From Acidobacteriota bacterium (GTDB taxonomy: Bacteria > Acidobacteriota > UBA4820 > DSQY01): a stretch of DNA of 64,000 nucleotides. Where the stretch lies: contig JAJYLT010000018.1 of assembly GCA_021787565.1 (NCBI GenBank), positions 1-64,000 of the forward strand, in the 5' to 3' direction. Position 1 is the first letter of the stretch, and each line of letters begins with the position of its first letter. The notes below the pieces were generated by a model that saw only the letters and a program-made list of their open reading frames with translations, was not told the DNA's origin and did not search any database. The position numbers and the translations under genes are program-made. Shown here one piece after another: positions 5,381 through 15,367 of this stretch.

Positions 5381-5725
5381 ATGTCAGCTTGCGGACGGGT
5401 GCGGGCCAAGCTTGGTGCTTACCTGCGTGGACAACTCGATGAGCGCGGGAAAGAGGAGGTCAAGTCCCATTGCGCGGCATGCCTCCCCTGCGCCTCGGCG
5501 CTGAAGGCCCAGAGGGTCCTGGTGGAGGCGGTCATCCCGCTGGTACGCTCCCTCGAGCCGGCGCCAGCCAAACTGCGTGACGCTCTGGGCGTCTGCATGG
5601 ACTGCATGGACAACCCGAGCAGGGCCATCTGCCGCCGCCTCAAGCATCGGTTGCGGCTTGCAGCCGGTCCCGCTTCCGGCGTATCATTCGCCTCCGAGGA
5701 GAATAGCCATGGCATTGAACGCTAA
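5381..5725 (+). CDS. Putative zinc-finger anti-sigma factor
   Basis: A 114-residue soluble protein directly behind the sigma gene. The N-terminal C...HCAACLPC pattern matches the HxxxCxxC-like zinc motif of zf-HC2 anti-sigma factors (ZAS domain). More cysteines occur in VCMDCMDN. No membrane segment is present, which would fit a cytoplasmic redox-sensing anti-sigma such as RsrA. Start ATG 5381 is chosen for GGGAGG seven bases upstream; TTG 5366 and ATG 5375 are in-frame alternatives. Its 3' end overlaps the next gene by 17 bases. Confidence 0.75.
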   Translation: MSACGRVRAKLGAYLRGQLDERGKEEVKSHCAACLPCASALKAQRVLVEAVIPLVRSLEPAPAKLRDALGVCMDCMDNPSRAICRRLKHRLRLAAGPASGVSFASEENSHGIER

Positions 5726-6224
5726 GAAAACGACCATCCTGGCCGCCGCCCTCGCCGGGGTTCTGGCGATGGCGGCGGTCTTCGCGGGGACCGACGTGGG
5801 GCAGGCCGCGGAGGATTTCACGCTCCAGCCCGTGCAGGGCGGACAGCCGGTAAGCCTTCTCAAGAACGAGGGCAAGCCCACCCTGCTGTTCTTTTGGGCC
5901 ACGTGGTGCCCGCCTTGCAAGCGGGAGATCCCCGACCTGAAGAGGATCCACGAGGAGTACGCCAAGAAGGGACTCCGCATGCTGGGCGTGGCCCTCAACT
6001 TCCGGGAGAGCCGCGAAGACGTGGTTCGGTTCCAGCAGGAGCAGCAACTGCCCTACACGGTCCTCTGGGACGTGAACAACAAGATCGCCACCGAGTACGG
6101 GGTCGAGGGCATTCCCACGGTGATCCTCCTGGATGGGAAGGGCGTGATCCGGTACCGGGGGCACCAGATGACCGAGGAGTTCACCAAGCTCCTGGAGAGC
6201 TATACGGCCGGCCAGAAGGGCTGA
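5709..6224 (+). CDS. Exported TlpA/ResA-like thioredoxin
   Basis: A 171-residue thiol-disulfide oxidoreductase, probably periplasmic. It starts at ATG 5709 after GAGGAG. A signal peptide (LAAALAGVLAMAAVFAG) is followed by the AhpC/TSA-Redoxin fold, with the WCPPCK active site at C67 and C70 and a cis-proline in GIPTVILLDG. Typical substrates are cytochrome c maturation factors or other exported disulfide proteins; none is visible nearby. It overlaps the anti-sigma gene, so the three genes form one operon and a thiol-responsive regulon is a reasonable guess. Confidence 0.93.
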   Translation: MALNAKKTTILAAALAGVLAMAAVFAGTDVGQAAEDFTLQPVQGGQPVSLLKNEGKPTLLFFWATWCPPCKREIPDLKRIHEEYAKKGLRMLGVALNFRESREDVVRFQQEQQLPYTVLWDVNNKIATEYGVEGIPTVILLDGKGVIRYRGHQMTEEFTKLLESYTAGQKG

Positions 6225-6285: not shown

Positions 6286-8634
6286 TCACGGGCAGCCGCG
6301 GCCAAAGAGCCTGCGCGACCAGTCTCCGTCCCGATGGCGGTAAACCATGGGGCGGCCTTCCGTCAAATCCAGCAGGAGGGCGCCGTCCCGGTCGGTGCGG
6401 TAGACCCGGGCAGGCAGGGAGGCGTAGCGGGCCAGCACGGCGGGCGACGGGTGGCCGAAGCGGTTGGCCCGCCCCACGCTGATGAGGACCACCTTGGGGG
6501 CCACGGCATCCAGCCAGGCCGGGCTGCTGGAGGTGGCGGACCCGTGGTGGGGCGAGATCATCGCGTAGGCCGACAGGAGAAGGCGGGCCTCCAGGATGTC
6601 CCGTTCGCCCGCCCGTTCAAGGTCCCCCGTGGCGAGCAGCGCGGTAGGTCCGAACGTGAGCCTGGCCACCAGGCTGCGGTCGTTCTCGTCGCGGAGATCG
6701 CACGGCTCCCCGGGGCCGAGGACCGAGAGAGAGGGGCCCGAGGTGACGAATCCCCGTCCGCGGGTCAGCGGAATCAGGGGAACGTTCCTTGCCGAGGCTA
6801 TCGCGGCGATTCGCCGCGGCAGATCGGGCTCGGGGGGATCGGAGGCTGGATAGGCCAGGAAGCCCACCGGGAGGTCCTGGATCAGGTCCTCGGCGGCGCC
6901 GCAGTGGTCGCGGTCCCAGTGCGTCAGCACGATGCCGGTCAGGCCCTTCACGCCCGCCCTGGCCAGGAACGGCTCGATCACGGTGATCCCCGATCCAGGG
7001 CCCTCGATGCCGCTGGTGCCCACGTCGACGAGAAGACAACCGCCCGGCCAGAGCACGGCCTGGCATGAGGCCTCCCCGACGTCGAGGAGGGCCACCCCCC
7101 GGGCGTCCCGAACGGACGGCCCGGTGGGCCAAGACCAGAAGGCCACGGCCGCGGCTCCGATGAGCACCCATCCGGATGCCCGGCGGCGGGACGGCCAGGC
7201 CAGCACGGCGAGCCCCAGGAGGTAGAGAGCCGTCCAGCCCAACCACGGAAACGGAACGAAGAAGCTTCCCCATGCGCTCCTGCCCAGTCCCTCCGCCATG
7301 GTCATGAAGGGCCTGGCCGTCAGCTCCAGGCTCCAGGCCAGAGCCTGGTGCAGGCCCGGTACGAACCCGAGACCCAGGATGTAGAGGAGCCCGATCCCCT
7401 GGACGGCCATGAGCGGGAGGGAGGCGGCCGGAGTGGCGAGCCATCCCCATGGGGAGAACCGGTGGAAGGTGATCACCAGGATGGGAAGCGTGGCCAACTG
7501 CGCCGAGAGCCCCACCCAGAGCAGCTTGAGGAGCCAAGCCAGCGGGCCTTTGGCGGGCAGGACCTTGGGGTAGGCGCTCCAGAACACCAGGATGCCCAGG
7601 GTCGCCGCGAAGGTGAGCTGGAAGCCGGCGTCCAAGATGAACTGGGGCCGGTAGACGAGGAGCAAGGCCGCCGCCAGCGTCCACGCCGTGACCGCGCTGT
7701 GGGGTCTGGCGAGCAGGCGCAACAGGAGAAACAGGGCCGCCATCAGGAGCGCGCGCGACAGGGAGCTGCTCGGCGCGACGAGGAGTCCGTACACCGCCAG
7801 GAGGACGAGCGCGGCCCCGTCCCGCCAGGAGGGGGGGCACCGGAGGGCGTGGGCCAGCCCCATGAAGAGGAGCAGGACCAGGCCCACGTTAAAGCCCGAG
7901 AGCGCGATCAGGTGGAGGAGGCCGGATCGGCTCAGGTTGGCGGTGCTCTGGGTGTCCAGGAGCCCCCGTTCGCCCAGCAGCAGGGCCAGAAGGGCCCCCC
8001 GGAGATCGCCCGTGTCCTCCTCCAGGCGGGACCGGATGGCCTGTCTGTATCGGCCGATCAGGTGCCATTTCCCGGGAGGAGATTCGTGGACGAGGGCGGC
8101 ACTCCGGCACGTGCCCAGAAGAGAAATGTCCTGGCGTGCGAGGTAGGCCGCCGAATCGAATTGTCCCGGGTTGGCGGCGGAGCGGGGGGGCGTGAGCCCC
8201 AGGCTCGCCTCCAGCCGCGCCCCCTCGGTGGGAGGCGGGATGGGCAGGTAGGCCCGGGCGAGGGAGCGGACGGGAATCCAGGCCGACTCCTTGCGGGCGA
8301 AGTCGAGCTGAAGCGTGACCCGGCTTCCGTCGGGCCAGGGCTCGGCCTCGACGACTTTGCCCCTCACCCAGAAGTAGGCGGGGTCCTGGGCCCGGGACAC
8401 GCTCTGGGCGAGCCAGTCGGGAGCTAGGGAGTGGAGCCGGGCTCCTCCCGTGGCCAGCCCCACGATGGCCGCCAGCAGGGGCAGGGCGAGACGCAGGCGG
8501 GGCAGGCGCAGTACCGAGGCGGCCACGGCGAGGGCCGGCAGGGCAATCCACCAGGGCGCAACGATCCACGGGGCGAGACCGACCCCCGCGGCAAACGCGG
8601 CCAGGACGGCTGTGCGCGCCTCCCATGACCCCAC
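6286..8634 (-). CDS. comEC: ComEC/Rec2 DNA-uptake channel protein
   Basis: Inner-membrane channel for single-stranded DNA in natural transformation. The 782-residue protein has an N-terminal multi-TM/DUF4131 region, the Competence domain (from about LRGALLALLLGERGLL through SGLLHLIALSGFNVGL and later helices), and a C-terminal metallo-beta-lactamase-like domain with LTHWDRDHCGA and ISPHHGSATSSS. All expected parts are present. Start GTG 8634 has GGGGGAG about seven bases upstream; the nearby ATG is out of frame. It lies about 100 bases downstream of the thioredoxin-TPR gene on the same strand. Confidence 0.95.
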   Translation of the reverse strand: MGSWEARTAVLAAFAAGVGLAPWIVAPWWIALPALAVAASVLRLPRLRLALPLLAAIVGLATGGARLHSLAPDWLAQSVSRAQDPAYFWVRGKVVEAEPWPDGSRVTLQLDFARKESAWIPVRSLARAYLPIPPPTEGARLEASLGLTPPRSAANPGQFDSAAYLARQDISLLGTCRSAALVHESPPGKWHLIGRYRQAIRSRLEEDTGDLRGALLALLLGERGLLDTQSTANLSRSGLLHLIALSGFNVGLVLLLFMGLAHALRCPPSWRDGAALVLLAVYGLLVAPSSSLSRALLMAALFLLLRLLARPHSAVTAWTLAAALLLVYRPQFILDAGFQLTFAATLGILVFWSAYPKVLPAKGPLAWLLKLLWVGLSAQLATLPILVITFHRFSPWGWLATPAASLPLMAVQGIGLLYILGLGFVPGLHQALAWSLELTARPFMTMAEGLGRSAWGSFFVPFPWLGWTALYLLGLAVLAWPSRRRASGWVLIGAAAVAFWSWPTGPSVRDARGVALLDVGEASCQAVLWPGGCLLVDVGTSGIEGPGSGITVIEPFLARAGVKGLTGIVLTHWDRDHCGAAEDLIQDLPVGFLAYPASDPPEPDLPRRIAAIASARNVPLIPLTRGRGFVTSGPSLSVLGPGEPCDLRDENDRSLVARLTFGPTALLATGDLERAGERDILEARLLLSAYAMISPHHGSATSSSPAWLDAVAPKVVLISVGRANRFGHPSPAVLARYASLPARVYRTDRDGALLLDLTEGRPMVYRHRDGDWSRRLFGRGCP

Positions 8635-8671
8635 GGAGAAACTCCCCCCTTCCTCCCCGGCCAGACGCGAA

Positions 8672-8702
8672 GCGCCCCGGCCGTCGACCCCGGCCGGGGC
8701 GC
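8672..8702 (-). terminator. GC-rich hairpin after the thioredoxin-TPR gene
   Basis: GCGCCCCGGCC and GGCCGGGGCGC form an 11 bp stem with a 9-base loop between the stop at 8734 and the comEC start. No clear T-run is present. Confidence 0.55.
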
Positions 8703-8733
8703 CAAGGATCGCGCCGCAAAGGTCACGAGCCGG

Positions 8734-9807
8734 TCAGTGCTTGTCCTTGCTCCCGCCGGCCTTCAGGAACTTGGCGCGCTGCCCCTCGAGGTAGCTGTCG
8801 CCGGGTTTCTGCTTGAGGGCCCTATCGATGGTCCCCACGGCCTGGTCACTCTTCCCCATCTTGTAGTACACCTCGGCCACCGTGTCCAGGATGCCGGGGT
8901 CCTGCTTGCCGAGTTCGGCGGCGCGCTGCCCCGCCGTCAGGGCCTGGTCCAGCTCCACCCCCAGCTCCGCGCAGTGCCAGGCGTAGTCGTTGAGGAACTG
9001 GGCGTCGTCCTGGTGGGCGGGAAGCAACTTGTGGTAGAGGGCCATGAGGCTGTCCTCGGCCTTCCGCTTGGCGGCCACGTCCTTGGCGTTCTTGACCTCC
9101 CGGCGGTAGTGGCCCGAGAGCGTGCTGAAGGCCTCGGCGGCGTTGGGGTCCTTGGCATCGGTGGCGACCACGGTGAGGGCCTCGATGCCCTTCGGGGCAT
9201 CGGTTGTCAGCCAGGCCTGCGCCTCGATGAACCTCAGCGTCTGCGTGGCCTTCCCGTCCGGCCCCGGCTTGAGAGCCCTGGCCTTGTCCACCCAGACCAG
9301 CGACTCCTTCGGCTCGCCGCGGTCCAGGTACTTCTGGGCGATGGTGACCCCTTCGGCCACGGTCGGAGCTGTGCCGGCCCGGTCAAGGTAGTCCTGCAGC
9401 GTGTCCACGCCGTAGAGGTAGCCGAGCAGGGTCTTGAGCCACTCCGACCGGCCGTTCAAGCCGATGATGCGGTCCACCTCCGCCCCCTTCGTGTCCAGAA
9501 CCACGGTGGTGGGGATCCCGGTGACGTGATAGCTCTTGAGGAGGGGCTTGTTGTCCGGAAGGTCCACGTTGGCGCGATACCAGACGACGTTCCGGTCGAA
9601 ACGGTCCATCGTGTTCTGCGTAAGGACGTCACGGTCCAGTTTCTGGCAGGCCCCTCACCAGTCCGCGTAGAACTTGAGGACCACCATCTTATTCTGGTTC
9701 TTCGCCGCCGCCTCCGCCTGATCGAGCGAGCCCTTGAACCAGGGTTTTTCGCCGGCCAGCAGGACCACGGGCAACAGCGCCAGGAGTCCGATCAGGAAAC
9801 GCTTCAT
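8734..9807 (-). CDS. Exported thioredoxin-fold/TPR protein with in-frame UGA (candidate selenoprotein)
   Basis: Starting at ATG 9807, which has a strong GGAGG site and a signal peptide (MKRFLIGLLALLPVVLLAG), the frame is open for 357 codons except for one TGA at 9655-9657. That TGA is codon 51 in FYADW-U-GACQKLD, exactly where the first cysteine of a WCxxC thioredoxin-like motif should be; Cys54 is intact. The cis-proline motif GIPTTVVLD follows, then TPR-like helices to the C-terminus (YYKMGKSDQAVGTIDRALKQKPGDS). Selenocysteine at this position is known in other thioredoxin-fold proteins. Automated calling would start at ATG 9609 and lose the signal peptide and active site. A Cys-to-stop mutation is the alternative. 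Confidence 0.75.
9624..9637 (-). promoter_or_regulatory. Possible bacterial SECIS apical hairpin
   Basis: Seventeen bases after the UGA, GGAC and GUCC can pair around the loop CGUGAC, which has a G at loop position 2. An outer UGC/GCA pairing could extend it. Spacing and loop fit the loose bacterial SECIS rule, but the stem is short and a competing CCAG/CUGG hairpin exists, so this is tentative. Confidence 0.35.
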
Positions 9808-10256
9808 CTGCACCTCCCCGGGTGATCTCTGAGGCGGCCTGGACCTCCGGGCCGTCCCTCCAAAAGAGGATCAGCATAGCGCAGGGCGCCCGCTTGTTCC
9901 ATAGCCGGAAGCGAGCCGGAAGCGGGCTAGTGTGCTGTCTCAGTGATGGGTTCACCATGGAAGCAGGCGACAGACAGCACACGGAGGAGTGCGGGGAGGA
10001 AGCCTCCCCGCTCTTTCGGGGTAACAGCCCGCCGCAGGCGGGCGCCCTAGGGGCGGAGTCCCTTGGGAAGTGTCGTGTCCCGGGAAATGCGTCTGTAGAT
10101 CATGCCCCTCCAAAATGGACCGCCTTGCCGGCTCCGAACCCCGGCCGGGCCTTGACAGCGCCTTCCTCCGCTTCACTCCGAAAGGCAGACCGCACGTGTG
10201 CGAGCTGAAATTGTTTGGGACAGTCATGATCTTAAACACAGGAGGGAGACACAACA
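9808..10256. other. Gene-free spacer with several palindromes
   Basis: No gene seen. It holds a perfect 11 bp inverted repeat (GTGTGCTGTCT at 9930-9940 with its complement at 9972-9982), a 9 bp hairpin (GCGGGGAGG at 9991-9999 with 10003-10011) and a copy of the TCCAAAAT-ended repeat at about 10105-10233. Confidence 0.6.
10105..10233. repeat. TCCAAAAT-ended repeat, short copy
   Basis: It begins with TCCAAAATGGAC and a CGCCTTGCCGGCTCCGAACC core, and ends with a GCGCCTTCCTCCGCTTC-like block, GTGCGAGCTGAA and GTTTGGGACAG. The order and sequence match the longer copy at 18046-18432. The ends are imperfect inverted repeats (TCCAAAA / TTTGGGA). Confidence 0.65.
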
Positions 10257-12005
10257 CTAGGAGGGGAGGCGGATCCGGAACCCCGCGCCGCCCAGGGGAG
10301 AGGCGAAGGGCGAGAGCTCCCCCCCGTGTTCCCGGACGATCTTGCGGGCGATGGCCAGCCCCAGGCCCGTACCGCCCGGCTTCTGGCTGGAAAAGGGCAC
10401 GAACAGCTCTTGCGCGGCCTCGGGACTCAGGCCCGGCCCGTCGTCCTCCACTCGGATCGTCGCCCCCTCGGGCTCCAAGCCGCACGAGAGCCGCACGCGC
10501 CCGTTGCCTCGTCCGCTCTGCAAGTGGGCCTCGGCCGCGTTGCGCGTGAGGTTTCGAATGGCCCTGGCCAAGGCCTCCCGGTCCGCTCGAACGCTGTCGC
10601 CGTCTCCGGCCGAGACCTGCACCTGGAGATCCGGAAATTGTTGCCGGAGCGCCTGCGCCTCCTCTTCCAGGAGCGGCTCGAGGGGAATCATCTCGGTCAC
10701 CAGGGGTAGCGGGCGTGCGAAGAAGAGGAGGTTCTGGACCACCGTCTCCAGCCCGCGGATCTCCTCCAGCAATCCCTGATAGTGGACCTGACCGGCCATC
10801 TCAGGCCGGTCCTGGGCCAGGAGTTTGATGTGGGCCGTGAAGGTGCTGAGGCTGTTGCGCACCTCGTGCGCCACTCCCGCGGCCACCTCGCCGAGGCGGG
10901 AGAGGGCCTCCCGCTCGCGTATCGTCCTGCGCATCTGGTAGAGCGAGGTCTGGTCCTTCATGATCAAGAGATAGCCCCGGAGCTGGTGGAGGAGGTTGAA
11001 CAGCGGAATTCCCACGACCTGGAGGAGAAGCCCCGGGGCTCCCGGCACCTCCTCTCGCAGGGTCAGGCTCCGCCTCTCCATGGACTCCCTCAGGGCGGCC
11101 AGGGCTTCCGGCCTGGCCGCGAGCAAGGCTTCGGCCGCGTCGCCCAGCCGGGGGACCGTCGGCAGGCCGAGGAGGGAGCGGCCGGCGGCGTTGAGGCCCG
11201 AGAGGCGTCCCGTCTCGTCGAACCGGAGGTACCCCGCCTCGAGGTTGGCGCAGAGGGCCTCGGCGAGCCCCTCCACCTCCTCGGCCCTCCGCTTCTCCCG
11301 CTGGTGCAGCTCGGCCAGCTCGTCGCTGCGAGCCCTCAGCTCCTGGAGCGTGTGCTGGAAGACCTCCACCATCGCCAGGGCGGGAGAACCCCCGCCGGGC
11401 GAGGCGAGGTACTCGCTGGCGTCACGTACCGTGCTGGCCAGGCCCTGGTAGGAGCGATAGAGCCTCAGGGCCAGCCAGATCCACAGCAGACCCAGCAGGG
11501 TCAGCCCCACGGCCTCGAACACCGAGAGCAGGACGTACCGGCTCCGGAGCCGCTCGTAGGCTGGCGCCGCGAAAGTCACCATCAGAAGCCGGCCATCCTC
11601 CAGACTCCTCAGGTAGAGCCAGCGGCCCCCCTCCCGGATCACCTCTTCCGTCCCCTTCGGTGGGGCGTCCACCCTTGGCGGGGCGAAGGCGGGATCGGTC
11701 CACAGCACCCGCGGCCCGAACAGCAGGGCCATGCCCTGGGGCTGGATCGGTGAGGGCGGCAGGTCCGGCGGCAGGAGAGCCAGCCGCCAAGGCGGCCCGG
11801 AAGGTTGCCGGAAACCGCTGACCTCCAGGGCCTTCCACCCTCTCCTGCCGAGGAGGAGGGCCTGGTCCGAGACCGCCTTCCGCTGGATAGCCAGCGACTG
11901 CGACAGGGTCACGAGGCCGCTCCCCGAGGCGAACAGGAAGAGCGTGCAGGTGGCCAGCAGGGCCCAGACGAGGAGCCGCCTCGTGTCGGGCTTGAGCAGG
12001 CTCAT
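10257..12005 (-). CDS. Membrane sensor histidine kinase (NtrB/AtoS-like)
   Basis: A 582-residue kinase. TM1 is near the N-terminus (LLVWALLATCTLFLFASG), followed by an extracytoplasmic domain of about 130 residues and TM2 (LLSVFEAVGLTLLGLLWIWLAL). A coiled linker and a PAS-like domain (GYLRFDETGRLSGLNAAG) follow. The HisKA H-box is VAHEVRNSLS at about residue 375, and the HATPase has NLTRNAAEA, DDGPGLS and GGTGLGLAI. The start is ATG 12005, overlapping the prepilin-peptidase TGA (ATGA); the longer upstream frame is its shadow. No response regulator is visible. The link to pilus genes suggests, but does not prove, PilS-like control. Confidence 0.92.
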   Translation of the reverse strand: MSLLKPDTRRLLVWALLATCTLFLFASGSGLVTLSQSLAIQRKAVSDQALLLGRRGWKALEVSGFRQPSGPPWRLALLPPDLPPSPIQPQGMALLFGPRVLWTDPAFAPPRVDAPPKGTEEVIREGGRWLYLRSLEDGRLLMVTFAAPAYERLRSRYVLLSVFEAVGLTLLGLLWIWLALRLYRSYQGLASTVRDASEYLASPGGGSPALAMVEVFQHTLQELRARSDELAELHQREKRRAEEVEGLAEALCANLEAGYLRFDETGRLSGLNAAGRSLLGLPTVPRLGDAAEALLAARPEALAALRESMERRSLTLREEVPGAPGLLLQVVGIPLFNLLHQLRGYLLIMKDQTSLYQMRRTIREREALSRLGEVAAGVAHEVRNSLSTFTAHIKLLAQDRPEMAGQVHYQGLLEEIRGLETVVQNLLFFARPLPLVTEMIPLEPLLEEEAQALRQQFPDLQVQVSAGDGDSVRADREALARAIRNLTRNAAEAHLQSGRGNGRVRLSCGLEPEGATIRVEDDGPGLSPEAAQELFVPFSSQKPGGTGLGLAIARKIVREHGGELSPFASPLGGAGFRIRLPS

Positions 12006-12781
12006 GGGGAGAGGCGGCCGAGGAGGGCCCCGTACCAGGCCCAGAACCGGCCCGCGAAGAAGAGGCTCGCCAGGGCGGCCGCCGAGAGGAAGGTTCCGAA
12101 GGGAAGCGGCGTCCGACGGCCCTTGCCGGTCAGCAGGAGATATCCGCCGCCCAGGAGCGTTCCCAGCAGGGCGCCCCCGAGAATCGTGAGGAGCACCCCC
12201 CGCCAGCCCAGGAAGGCACCCACCATGGCGAGGAACTTCACGTCCCCCCAGCCCATGGCCTCGATGCCGAACAGGGCGTAGAGCGTGATCAGGAGGGCGG
12301 GGATGGCGGCGCCGAGGGCGGCGCCAGCCAGCGAAGCGGTGAGGTTGGTCCAGGGAAGGTAGGGCGAAAACAGCAGTCCGAGCGCGATGCCGGGCAGCGT
12401 GAGGCGGTCGGGCAGGATCTGGTGCTCCAGGTCGATGAGCCCCAGCACCACGCACAGGAGGGCGAAGAGACCCGCCGCCGCGCCGGGGAAGGTGGCGCCC
12501 CAGACCCAGGCGGAGAGGAGAAAAAGCACTCCCACCGAAGCCTCGACGGCGGGATACCGAACCGCGATGGGGCCGCCGCAGGCGGCGCACCGGCCCCCCA
12601 GGAACACCCAGGAGACCACGGGAACGTTGTGGAACCAGCGGATGGGACTCCCGCAATGAGGGCAATGGGAGGGCGGGTTCACGATGGACTCGCCCCGCGG
12701 CAGTCGGTGGATGAGCACGTTGGCGAAGGAGCCCAGGACCAGCCCGAAGAGCAAGGCGAGGGCGAGGGTGAGGGTCACCAT
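12002..12781 (-). CDS. pilD: Type IV prepilin leader peptidase / N-methyltransferase
   Basis: Cleaves and N-methylates type IV pilins and pseudopilins at the inner membrane. The 259-residue polytopic protein carries the N-terminal domain with GSFANVLIHRLPRG and the two Cys pairs CPHCG and CAACG. The aspartate protease motifs are in LIDLEHQILPD and GWGDVKFLAMVG. All diagnostic residues are present. It overlaps the upstream TPR gene by 7 bases and the downstream kinase by 4, so the block is one operon. Confidence 0.96.
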   Translation of the reverse strand: MVTLTLALALLFGLVLGSFANVLIHRLPRGESIVNPPSHCPHCGSPIRWFHNVPVVSWVFLGGRCAACGGPIAVRYPAVEASVGVLFLLSAWVWGATFPGAAAGLFALLCVVLGLIDLEHQILPDRLTLPGIALGLLFSPYLPWTNLTASLAGAALGAAIPALLITLYALFGIEAMGWGDVKFLAMVGAFLGWRGVLLTILGGALLGTLLGGGYLLLTGKGRRTPLPFGTFLSAAALASLFFAGRFWAWYGALLGRLSP

Positions 12782-13650
12782 TGGCCGAACTTCCCGCGGA
12801 ACTTGAAGGGCGTCTGGCAGGTCACGGCGCCTGTCTTGGGGTCGTAGAGGTAGGGCTTGCCGTCGGGATCGACGGGCAGAGACTTCAGGTACCCCGAGCT
12901 CACCAGGGTCTGCAGCGTGGGGGGCGGGGCCCCCTTGGCCTGCCGGTACATCGCCACGGCGCTCGTGAGATTGCGCAGGTCGATCTTGATGGTCAGGTCG
13001 AAGATGTTGCGCTCCGCCGCGAAGCGGAAATAGGAGGCCTGGTGTTCCTCCTGGCCGGCGTATTCCTGGGCGATGCTCTGCCAGTAGTGAAGCGAGCTCT
13101 CATAGTCCCCCTGGTACTTGTAGGCGTTGGCCAGCATATCCTTGAGAATCGGACGCTTGGGGTTGCGGGCGTAGGCGATGTGGAAGTACTTCAGGGCCTT
13201 GGCGTAGTTGTGGGCCTGGAAGAAGGCGTAGGTGCCGGCGTCCCAGGCCACCAGCCAGTCCTTGGGGTCGGCGGCGATCCCCTTGTCCGAGAGGGCGTAG
13301 AGCATGTCCCAGCGCTTGTCCAGGCTGAGGAACAGGTTCCCCATGATGTAGGCCTCGTAGAACCTGGGATCGAGGTCCGTGATCACGTCGTAGGTGTGAA
13401 GCAGGTAGGTGTCCCTCACGTTCTGCTTGTACCGGTCGAAGTACTGGATGGACCAGATGAAGATGAGGTCGGCCGCGAAGTTGTCCTGCCCCAGGCAGGC
13501 CACCTTGAGGTAGGCGCTGGATGGGATGTAGTAGGAGCGGAACTCGGTGGGGTAAGTGTCGTGCAGCGCCACCATCTGCTGGTGCAGGGGCACCACCGCG
13601 GAGAGCAGCAGGACGATGACCAGCACTCCCGCCAGGGTGCGCACGGTCAC
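12775..13650 (-). CDS. TPR-like exported or membrane-anchored protein
   Basis: A 291-residue protein with one N-terminal hydrophobic segment (LAGVLVIVLLLSAVVPL). A helical repeat region (YEAYIMGNLFLSLDKRW, YAKALKYFHIAYARNPKRP, YKYQGDYESSLHYWQSI) resembles TPRs. The C-terminus (VSSGYLKSLPVDPDGKPYLYDPKTG) looks like the C-terminal part of type II secretion pseudopilins. Start GTG 13650 overlaps the permease stop (GTGA). Its place between an ABC transporter and pilD suggests a role with a pilus or secretion apparatus; function unknown. Confidence 0.8.
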   Translation of the reverse strand: MTVRTLAGVLVIVLLLSAVVPLHQQMVALHDTYPTEFRSYYIPSSAYLKVACLGQDNFAADLIFIWSIQYFDRYKQNVRDTYLLHTYDVITDLDPRFYEAYIMGNLFLSLDKRWDMLYALSDKGIAADPKDWLVAWDAGTYAFFQAHNYAKALKYFHIAYARNPKRPILKDMLANAYKYQGDYESSLHYWQSIAQEYAGQEEHQASYFRFAAERNIFDLTIKIDLRNLTSAVAMYRQAKGAPPPTLQTLVSSGYLKSLPVDPDGKPYLYDPKTGAVTCQTPFKFRGKFGQW

Positions 13651-14447
13651 ACCAGGTCGCGCCGCTTGAAGCAGAGCGAGGAGGCCAGGAGAAGCACGGC
13701 CACCATGAGGAGCGTGTACGTGACCCCCCGTACGGCGAATCCGGGGGCCGTCGCGATGTCGTGCACCACCAAGTTGTTGATGTCGAGCAGGTTGAGGTCG
13801 GGCAGGACGTGGTAGAGCAGGAGAAGCGCGCGCTTGGCGAATTCGGACTGCACCAGCGGAACCAGGAAGGAGGGGATGCTCGAGCTGGTATGGCCGATGA
13901 GGTAGAAGGCCACCGTGCAGATGGCGCTCACCACGGGCGAACTGACCGAGGAGAAGAAGAGGGCTACCGCGGAGAGAATCATCAGCTCCAGGTAGATGTA
14001 CCCAACGGCCGGGAATATCCGGGCCGTGAAGGCCCCCACCGAGGCCAGGACCCCCGCCAGGACGAGCGTCATGGCCACCAGGTTGACCAGGAGCACGGTC
14101 ATGATCCCGAGATACCGGCCCAGGATGAAGCTGCTTCGGGAGAGGGGCTTGGAGAGGACGTTGTAGATGGTCTTGCGCTCCACCTCCTTGTAGATGAGGC
14201 CGATGCCGATGAAGATGGCGGTGGCCGCCGAGAAGTAGGCGATGGTCGAGAGCCCCATGTCCAGGATGACGCGGCGCAAGCTCCCGATGGCCAGAAGCCC
14301 CATCACGAAGGAGAAGAGCAGGAGGCAGACGGCGAAGGCCAGCAGGATGTAAAAGATGCGGCTCCTCACGGCCTCCTTGAAGGTGTTCTTGGCGATGGCG
14401 TAGACCTGGACGAGAGTCAGCCTCGGCGTGATCGCCACGGGCGTCAT
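13647..14447 (-). CDS. ABC-2 type transporter permease
   Basis: A 266-residue membrane protein with about six hydrophobic segments (for example IFYILLAFAVCLLLFSFVMG and VSAICTVAFYLIG). It matches the ABC-2 permease layout, including a KEVERKTIYNVLSKPLSR loop typical of NosY/GldF-like members. Start ATG 14447 overlaps the ATPase TGA as ATGA; the longer frame upstream is a shadow. It forms one transporter with the next gene. Substrate unknown. Confidence 0.9.
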   Translation of the reverse strand: MTPVAITPRLTLVQVYAIAKNTFKEAVRSRIFYILLAFAVCLLLFSFVMGLLAIGSLRRVILDMGLSTIAYFSAATAIFIGIGLIYKEVERKTIYNVLSKPLSRSSFILGRYLGIMTVLLVNLVAMTLVLAGVLASVGAFTARIFPAVGYIYLELMILSAVALFFSSVSSPVVSAICTVAFYLIGHTSSSIPSFLVPLVQSEFAKRALLLLYHVLPDLNLLDINNLVVHDIATAPGFAVRGVTYTLLMVAVLLLASSLCFKRRDLV

Positions 14448-15367
14448 GTTCCCCCTCCCGGAATCTGGGCCATGAACAGGTCCTCCAGGGAGGCCTTGTG
14501 CGGCATCACGGAGCGCACCGAGGCCCCCTCGGCCCTCGCCTTGTCCAGAAGCGTTTGGAGGGTCTCCTCGGACTCCACGCGCACCAGCACCTGACCACCC
14601 CGGTGGGTGAGCACTGAACAACCGGAGGGAGGCGAGAAGGTCTCCAGCCCCCGCAGGGTGACGTCCCAGAAGCGGACCTCCGAGCCCAACAGCACCTCCA
14701 GGATCCCCTCCTGAACGACGCGGCCCTTGACCAGGATGGCCACCTGGTCGCAGAGCATCTCGGCGTCCGCCAGGATGTGGGAGGAGAAGAAGACCGTCTT
14801 GCCCTGCTCCTTGAGGGAGAGGATGAGATCGCGGATCTCCCGCCGCCCGATGGGATCCAGGCCGCTCATGGGTTCATCCAGGATCACGAGCTCCGGATCG
14901 TGGATGAGGGCCTGGGCCAGCCCGATCCGCTGGAGCATGCCCTTGCTGTACTTCCGCAGTTGGAGCTTGCCCTGGCCCTTGAGGCCCACGGTCTCCAGCA
15001 GCTCGGGGACGCGCCGCGAGAGTTGGGAGGGCGAGAGGCCGTAGAGGCGGCCCATGAAGGCGAGCAGCTCGGCTCCCTTGAGGTAGTCGTAGAAATAGGG
15101 CGTCTCGGGGAGAAAGCCGATGCGCCTCCGGACGGAGCGGTCCGTGGAGCTCCTCCCGAAGATCCGGGCCTCGCCCGCATCGGGGAAGAGCAGGCCGGCC
15201 AGGATCTTGATGGTAGTTGTCTTGCCGGCGCCGTTGGGGCCCAGGAAGCCGTAGATGACCCCCTTGGGCACCGAGAGGTTGACGCCATCCAACACGTGGT
15301 GCACCCCGATGGAGAGGTGCCCCCGGAAGGACTTCTTTAGCTCGGTGACCTGCAGCACATGATCCAT
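14444..15367 (-). CDS. ABC transporter ATP-binding protein
   Basis: A 307-residue ATPase that energises the adjacent permease. Walker A is GPNGAGKTT, the signature is YSKGMLQRIGLAQAL, Walker B is LVILDEPMSGLDP, and the switch His is in FFSSHILADAE. The C-terminal extension (about 90 residues) is typical of CcmA/NatA-like exporters. Start ATG 15367 opens just before LQVTELKKSF; no strong ribosome site is seen. A MITE-like repeat lies about 65 bases upstream. Confidence 0.95.
   Translation of the reverse strand: MDHVLQVTELKKSFRGHLSIGVHHVLDGVNLSVPKGVIYGFLGPNGAGKTTTIKILAGLLFPDAGEARIFGRSSTDRSVRRRIGFLPETPYFYDYLKGAELLAFMGRLYGLSPSQLSRRVPELLETVGLKGQGKLQLRKYSKGMLQRIGLAQALIHDPELVILDEPMSGLDPIGRREIRDLILSLKEQGKTVFFSSHILADAEMLCDQVAILVKGRVVQEGILEVLLGSEVRFWDVTLRGLETFSPPSGCSVLTHRGGQVLVRVESEETLQTLLDKARAEGASVRSVMPHKASLEDLFMAQIPGGGT

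Follow-up and report, generated by a model that had tools for sequence, protein, structure and literature searches.

A thioredoxin-TPR protein from Acidobacteriota with a predicted selenocysteine in place of its first active-site cysteine

The window, meaning the whole analysed stretch of 64,000 nucleotides (contig JAJYLT010000018.1, Acidobacteriota), contains a thioredoxin-TPR (Trx-TPR) gene on the minus strand (9807→8734), a strand that the first-pass annotation had not given. The predicted selenoprotein coding sequence (8734..9807) comprises 357 residues including Sec51 and ends at a terminal TGA, as judged from translation, orthologues and codon-level conservation. Translation confirmed the earlier claim that the otherwise open 357-codon frame holds one in-frame TGA. 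It lies at 9657–9655 (9655..9657, minus strand), is codon 51, and falls exactly on the first cysteine of a W-x-G-A-C motif (context KFYADW-U-GACQKLDRDVLT, giving W-U-G-A-C). Ten of the 11 orthologues carry TGA at this position, and its reading as Sec would create a UxxC site. The second (resolving) cysteine, C54, and the cis-proline (GIPT) are kept, and the putative UGAC active-site motif from Sec51 to Cys54 covers 9646..9657 (minus strand). The strong ribosome site described earlier is GGGGAGG (9813..9819, minus strand), 5 bases ahead of the ATG at 9807, and a similar GGAGG is retained in most orthologues. As predicted, standard gene calling (table 11) truncates the gene to a start at 9609, and the resulting frame (8734..9609, minus strand) encodes 291 amino acids without the active site.

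The gene lies in an operon-like run on the minus strand (6286-14621), which encodes an ABC-2 permease, a TPR protein, a prepilin peptidase, a histidine kinase, the Trx-TPR protein and ComEC. The conserved upstream neighbours, both assigned by Pfam, are the prepilin peptidase (A24; 12002..12781, minus strand) and the sensor histidine kinase (10257..12665, minus strand; its real start is inside this frame). The conserved downstream neighbour is the competence protein ComEC (6286..8634, minus strand; PF03772), which is the same in genomes G038 and G063. The order in these two genomes is ABC transporter, TPR protein, prepilin peptidase, histidine kinase, Trx-TPR, GGDEF protein and ComEC, and the window has this order minus the extra GGDEF gene before comEC; an endonuclease V-like gene follows comEC in both. 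The Trx-TPR gene of G063 is thus a positional (syntenic) orthologue. The operon and its ComEC and prepilin-peptidase neighbours are shared by the orthologues whose neighbourhood was read. Beside the operon, on the opposite strand (5577-6224, plus), the window encodes a TlpA/ResA-like thioredoxin with an ordinary WCPPC motif.

The read-through protein exceeds the Pfam cut-offs for Thioredoxin_7 (PF13899, 49.3 bits, the best match), Thioredoxin (PF00085, 44.6 bits) and Thioredoxin_2 (PF13098, 42.8 bits), and TPR_14 was matched in the C-terminal part. The hydrophobic N-terminus (residues 1-18; 9754..9807, minus strand) reads as a probable signal peptide and appears as a low-confidence helix in the AlphaFold model. 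The thioredoxin domain (residues 25-125; 9433..9735, minus strand) and the TPR-type helical-repeat domain (residues about 137-352; 8752..9399, minus strand) were delimited by Pfam, the AlphaFold model and Foldseek. The model, built with 8 sequences (mean pLDDT 87), has a thioredoxin fold and, after it, helical repeats that span about 215 residues. Foldseek matched the former to the DsbD gamma domain and thioredoxins and the latter to TPR proteins; among the top structural matches, both domains were shared only by E. coli YbbN/CnoX and its Salmonella homologue. No NCBIfam model reached its own cut-off on the protein. The DsbD model NF001419 scored 56 bits against a cut-off of 330, with the gamma domain alone matched.

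The selenocysteine machinery was searched for in the window's genome (3.47 Mb, 98% complete), and the four components named by the first-pass annotation were all present. One tRNA-Sec (selC) scored 72.6 bits, above the gathering score, and was confirmed by ARAGORN with anticodon UCA. The selA (449 bits), selB (316 bits, plus a C-terminal match) and selD (342 bits) genes all scored above their curated cut-offs. The selD gene (L018, G000:C66) itself carries an in-frame TGA at the known Sec site (GAGUACKTSPLD), so that a second gene of this genome independently calls for UGA decoding. Another TGA, flagged within an EF-Tu match, was rejected as a Sec codon; it is the ordinary stop of tuf, followed by rpmG.

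Eight of the family's 9 genomes, the window's included, have the Trx-TPR gene. All eight genes, whose proteins are 49–94% identical to the window protein, contain exactly one internal stop, a TGA at the same codon. The sister family adds two further TGA orthologues, in G038 (SDTUHWC) and G075 (SDTUGAC), which brings the set to ten over two families (protein identity 40–94%). The same codon in 7 other genomes of the family and 2 of another family argues that the TGA is neither a chance event nor an assembly error. The first-pass annotation had named TGC or TGT in close strains as evidence against recoding; no such strain was found, and the congener G001 (94% identical) has both the TGA and a tRNA-Sec. 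In G002, of the same family (91% complete), selA was found, and the Trx-TPR gene and tRNA-Sec were not; these two gaps are probably due to the assembly.

The Cys/Sec exchange at codon 51 that the first-pass annotation had suggested looking for was found in the syntenic gene of G063, which belongs to the same genus (g6) as G075 and has TGC at this site (SDSCTYC). Both selA and tRNA-Sec are present in G075 and G038. Neither was found in G063, which is 90% complete, so that the absence is not absolute; they are, however, two independent genes, and its congener G086 likewise misses both together. In the tree, G063 shares a cluster with G038 and G075, Sec families lie outside it, and a reversion from Sec to Cys is therefore the simpler history. 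This topology suggests that Sec was the ancestral state in the order.

The sequence directly 3' of the UGA, AAACTGGACCGTGAnGTCCTnACG, is nearly frozen, wobble bases included, and folds into a 4-bp hairpin. The DNA after the UGA reads A(A/T)A CTG GAC CGT GAn GTC CTn ACG in each of the ten Sec genes, and GGAC pairs there with GUCC around the loop CGUGAn. The nucleotide-level conserved block, AAACTGGACCGTGACGTCCTTACG (9619..9642, minus strand), is 88–100% identical between the Sec pairs compared, whereas the rest of the gene is 44-61% identical. A single codon is used in all ten genomes for 6 of 7 invariant-residue codons within codons 54–63, versus 2 of 43 elsewhere. Wobble conservation is thus confined to the putative SECIS (Fisher p 1.2e-5, in a test that treats codons as independent and was computed after the block had been seen). 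In the Cys orthologue of G063, 10 of the 24 block bases are off consensus and the hairpin is gone. Bacterial SECIS elements are modelled with a loop of 3-9 nt, a stem of 4-16 bp, a G in the first two loop positions, a loop 16-37 nt from the UGA and an MFE <= -7.5 kcal/mol (PMC13188914). The predicted apical hairpin GGAC[CGUGAC]GUCC (9624..9637, minus strand) has a 4-bp stem, a 6-nt loop and G at loop position 2; it starts 17 nt and its loop 21 nt after the UGA, all within the limits on geometry. Its MFE ranges from -4.8 to -8.9 kcal/mol with the length of sequence folded and reaches the -7.5 threshold only at some lengths. The value over 39 nt (-7.0 kcal/mol) is weaker than the mean of mononucleotide shuffles, and thermodynamic stability is therefore not used as support. 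The stem of this type is invariant among the orthologues and provides no covariation of its own. A search of the genome with Rfam SECIS_1 gave no match; it gave none in E. coli or the other controls either, and this null is therefore uninformative. The sequence downstream of the UGA thus contains a hairpin of SECIS geometry that is conserved down to the wobble bases and missing from the Cys orthologue.

Profile searching across 396 genomes of the phylum extended the set to more distant, presumably exported Trx-TPR proteins whose homologous codon is TGA; they belong to several other acidobacteriotal families. Most of these TGA relatives have another hairpin, CTGCTSGGTSAGCAG, at a similar distance from the UGA. 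All six of its pairs are preserved at each of 20 distinct sites, which were picked by a pattern already requiring most of the stem, so that the full pairing is partly a result of selection. Its closing pair is G-C (14 sites) or C-G (6 sites), and one outer pair changes from C-G to U-A; these two compensatory switches appear to be the informative part of the pairing data. Genes with this hairpin, of about 500-520 aa each, also occur in tandem arrays of 2-4 genes (L161, G145:C101; L162, G295:C31; L165, G335:C124; L164, G319:C138). G145 has four Trx-TPR selenogenes in a row, and G295 has three in a row and one elsewhere. Of the genomes tested that carry TGA versions, nearly all have selA, tRNA-Sec or both, and neither was found in G247 and G105, which have Cys versions. 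Neither was found in G275 (92% complete) despite its TGA relative (L173, G275:C123), which has the TGA at position 742 and a good hairpin (AGACC GGGU GGUCU); this case could reflect contigs missing from the assembly, a contig of foreign origin or a gene in decay. Three short thioredoxin proteins (L170 in G273, L171 in G249 and L172 in G257; open frames of about 150-190 aa) show SASWUPMC-type motifs, TGA at the same site and CCGTGAGG-type downstream sequence, and they probably represent a further related selenoprotein form. No phage relatives were found.

The first-pass reading of the TGA as selenocysteine is supported by the Sec machinery, the ten TGA orthologues, the Cys exchange and the conserved SECIS-type hairpin, and codon 51 is almost certainly decoded in this way. 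The TGA could be a real stop, produced by a nonsense mutation or an assembly error in a Cys thioredoxin and leaving a pseudogene or a 291-aa protein that starts at 9609. The output of the standard gene caller is exactly this truncated frame, and assemblies of metagenomic origin can contain errors. However, 10 genomes from two families share TGA at this codon, no other type of stop occurs there, the remaining frame is both open and conserved, and wobble positions downstream are fixed. The pseudogene reading is rejected because the TGA is conserved codon-exactly over the two families, and a real stop is very improbable as a whole. Recoding of the UGA as another amino acid, such as Trp or Cys, through a reassigned code or near-cognate readthrough, is equally improbable. 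Nothing specific favours it apart from the Cys at this site in G063, whereas UGA is also a normal stop in the window's genome (for example that of tuf before rpmG), the full Sec pathway is present, and the apparent absence of this pathway coincides with TGC in G063. Sec coding, the thioredoxin and TPR domains, the operon and the Sec machinery are all well supported by comparative evidence, and for Sec coding the support is as strong as comparative genomics can give; we infer the biochemical function from the domains.

The decoding mechanism and the catalytic motif are already known. The Sec-containing thioredoxin (PF00085, UxxC) is an experimentally verified family described as small proteins (PMC13188914, Table 1). 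The window protein has the UxxC motif and a thioredoxin domain above the Pfam cut-off by which this family is recognised, with Sec predicted in place of the first active-site cysteine and the second cysteine kept. It differs in not being stand-alone, as a probable signal peptide precedes the thioredoxin domain and a TPR domain of some 215 residues follows it. The thiol:disulfide interchange selenoprotein (PF13098, UxxC), a predicted family of the same table, shares the UxxC motif and the PF13098 match, but the inventory gives no TPR fusion for it and the best Pfam match of the window protein is Thioredoxin_7. The Trx7/PDZ selenoprotein (NF041199, CxxU) has a Thioredoxin_7-type domain in common with the window protein, which it matches weakly over residues 24-65 (score 16.6 against a cut-off of 300), but it carries Sec at the second position and PDZ instead of TPR. 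Profile comparison places the DsbD gamma (C-terminal) domain and DsbH nearest to the thioredoxin domain, and by fold they are among its nearest relatives; the window protein lacks the membrane domain of DsbD, and DsbD lacks the TPR domain.

For the function, a periplasmic-reductase mechanism is slightly favoured. The hairpin would recruit SelB with Sec-tRNA-Sec, so that codon 51 is translated as selenocysteine, and the product would be exported with a U-x-x-C thioredoxin domain followed by the TPR domain. Export is suggested by the signal peptide, which was read by eye. The protein would most likely be an extracytoplasmic thiol-disulfide (selenol) oxidoreductase, in which Sec51 would attack substrate disulfides or oxidised thiols and Cys54 would resolve the intermediate, while the TPR domain would hold the client protein. 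Electrons may come from a DsbD/CcdA-type membrane reductase, perhaps one of the two encoded in the window's genome. The reductase direction, DsbD as the electron donor and client binding by the TPR domain are each presumed. Because its conserved operon also encodes prepilin peptidase and ComEC, the protein may help to fold pilus or competence proteins.

The selenoprotein could instead be a CnoX/YbbN-like chaperedoxin of the cell envelope, a holdase with redox protection and not a general disulfide reductase, although this is rather unlikely. The order of a thioredoxin domain and then a TPR domain is that of CnoX, and among solved structures that contain both domains, E. coli YbbN (3qou) gives the best match (E 1.1e-5). 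The two-domain superposition on it was poor, however (TM-score 0.25/0.31, rmsd 22.9), and since the relative domain arrangement of the model differs from that of YbbN, the window protein is not filed as CnoX. Moreover, CnoX has SxxC or CxxC and passes clients to the cytoplasmic GroEL/ES, whereas the window protein has a probable signal peptide, and the top NCBIfam score of its thioredoxin domain is to DsbD gamma, far under that cut-off. A bolder proposal, doubtful at present, is that a large unlisted acidobacteriotal family of exported Trx-TPR selenoproteins, arrayed in some lineages as three or four selenogenes, acts as envelope chaperedoxins, in which the selenol would repair clients; in the order of the window's genome these would perhaps belong to the type IV pilus and competence systems that share the operon.

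The 119 families in a 2026 inventory of prokaryotic selenoproteins include UxxC thioredoxins and thiol:disulfide interchange proteins, with no TPR fusion (PMC13188914). The literature search returned no relevant paper uniting selenocysteine, tetratricopeptide and thioredoxin, and nothing on the selenoproteome of Aminicenantes; a 2026 groundwater MAG survey, which the inventory cites, may contain some of the sequences. The architecture, its phylum-wide occurrence and the arrays appear to be new in the literature searched. Since standard annotation truncates the gene before its active site, a set of exported selenoproteins would have gone unseen in a phylum that is common and largely uncultured. 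The two hairpin types at one site offer material on SelB specificity beyond the well-known formate dehydrogenase SECIS. The pair of G075, with UGA, selA and tRNA-Sec, and G063, with TGC and neither of the two found, provides a clean within-genus natural experiment on Sec loss, in which the codon would revert, the SECIS erode and the machinery go. The tandem arrays of 3-4 Sec genes suggest that selenium-dependent redox chemistry of the envelope is important in this phylum.
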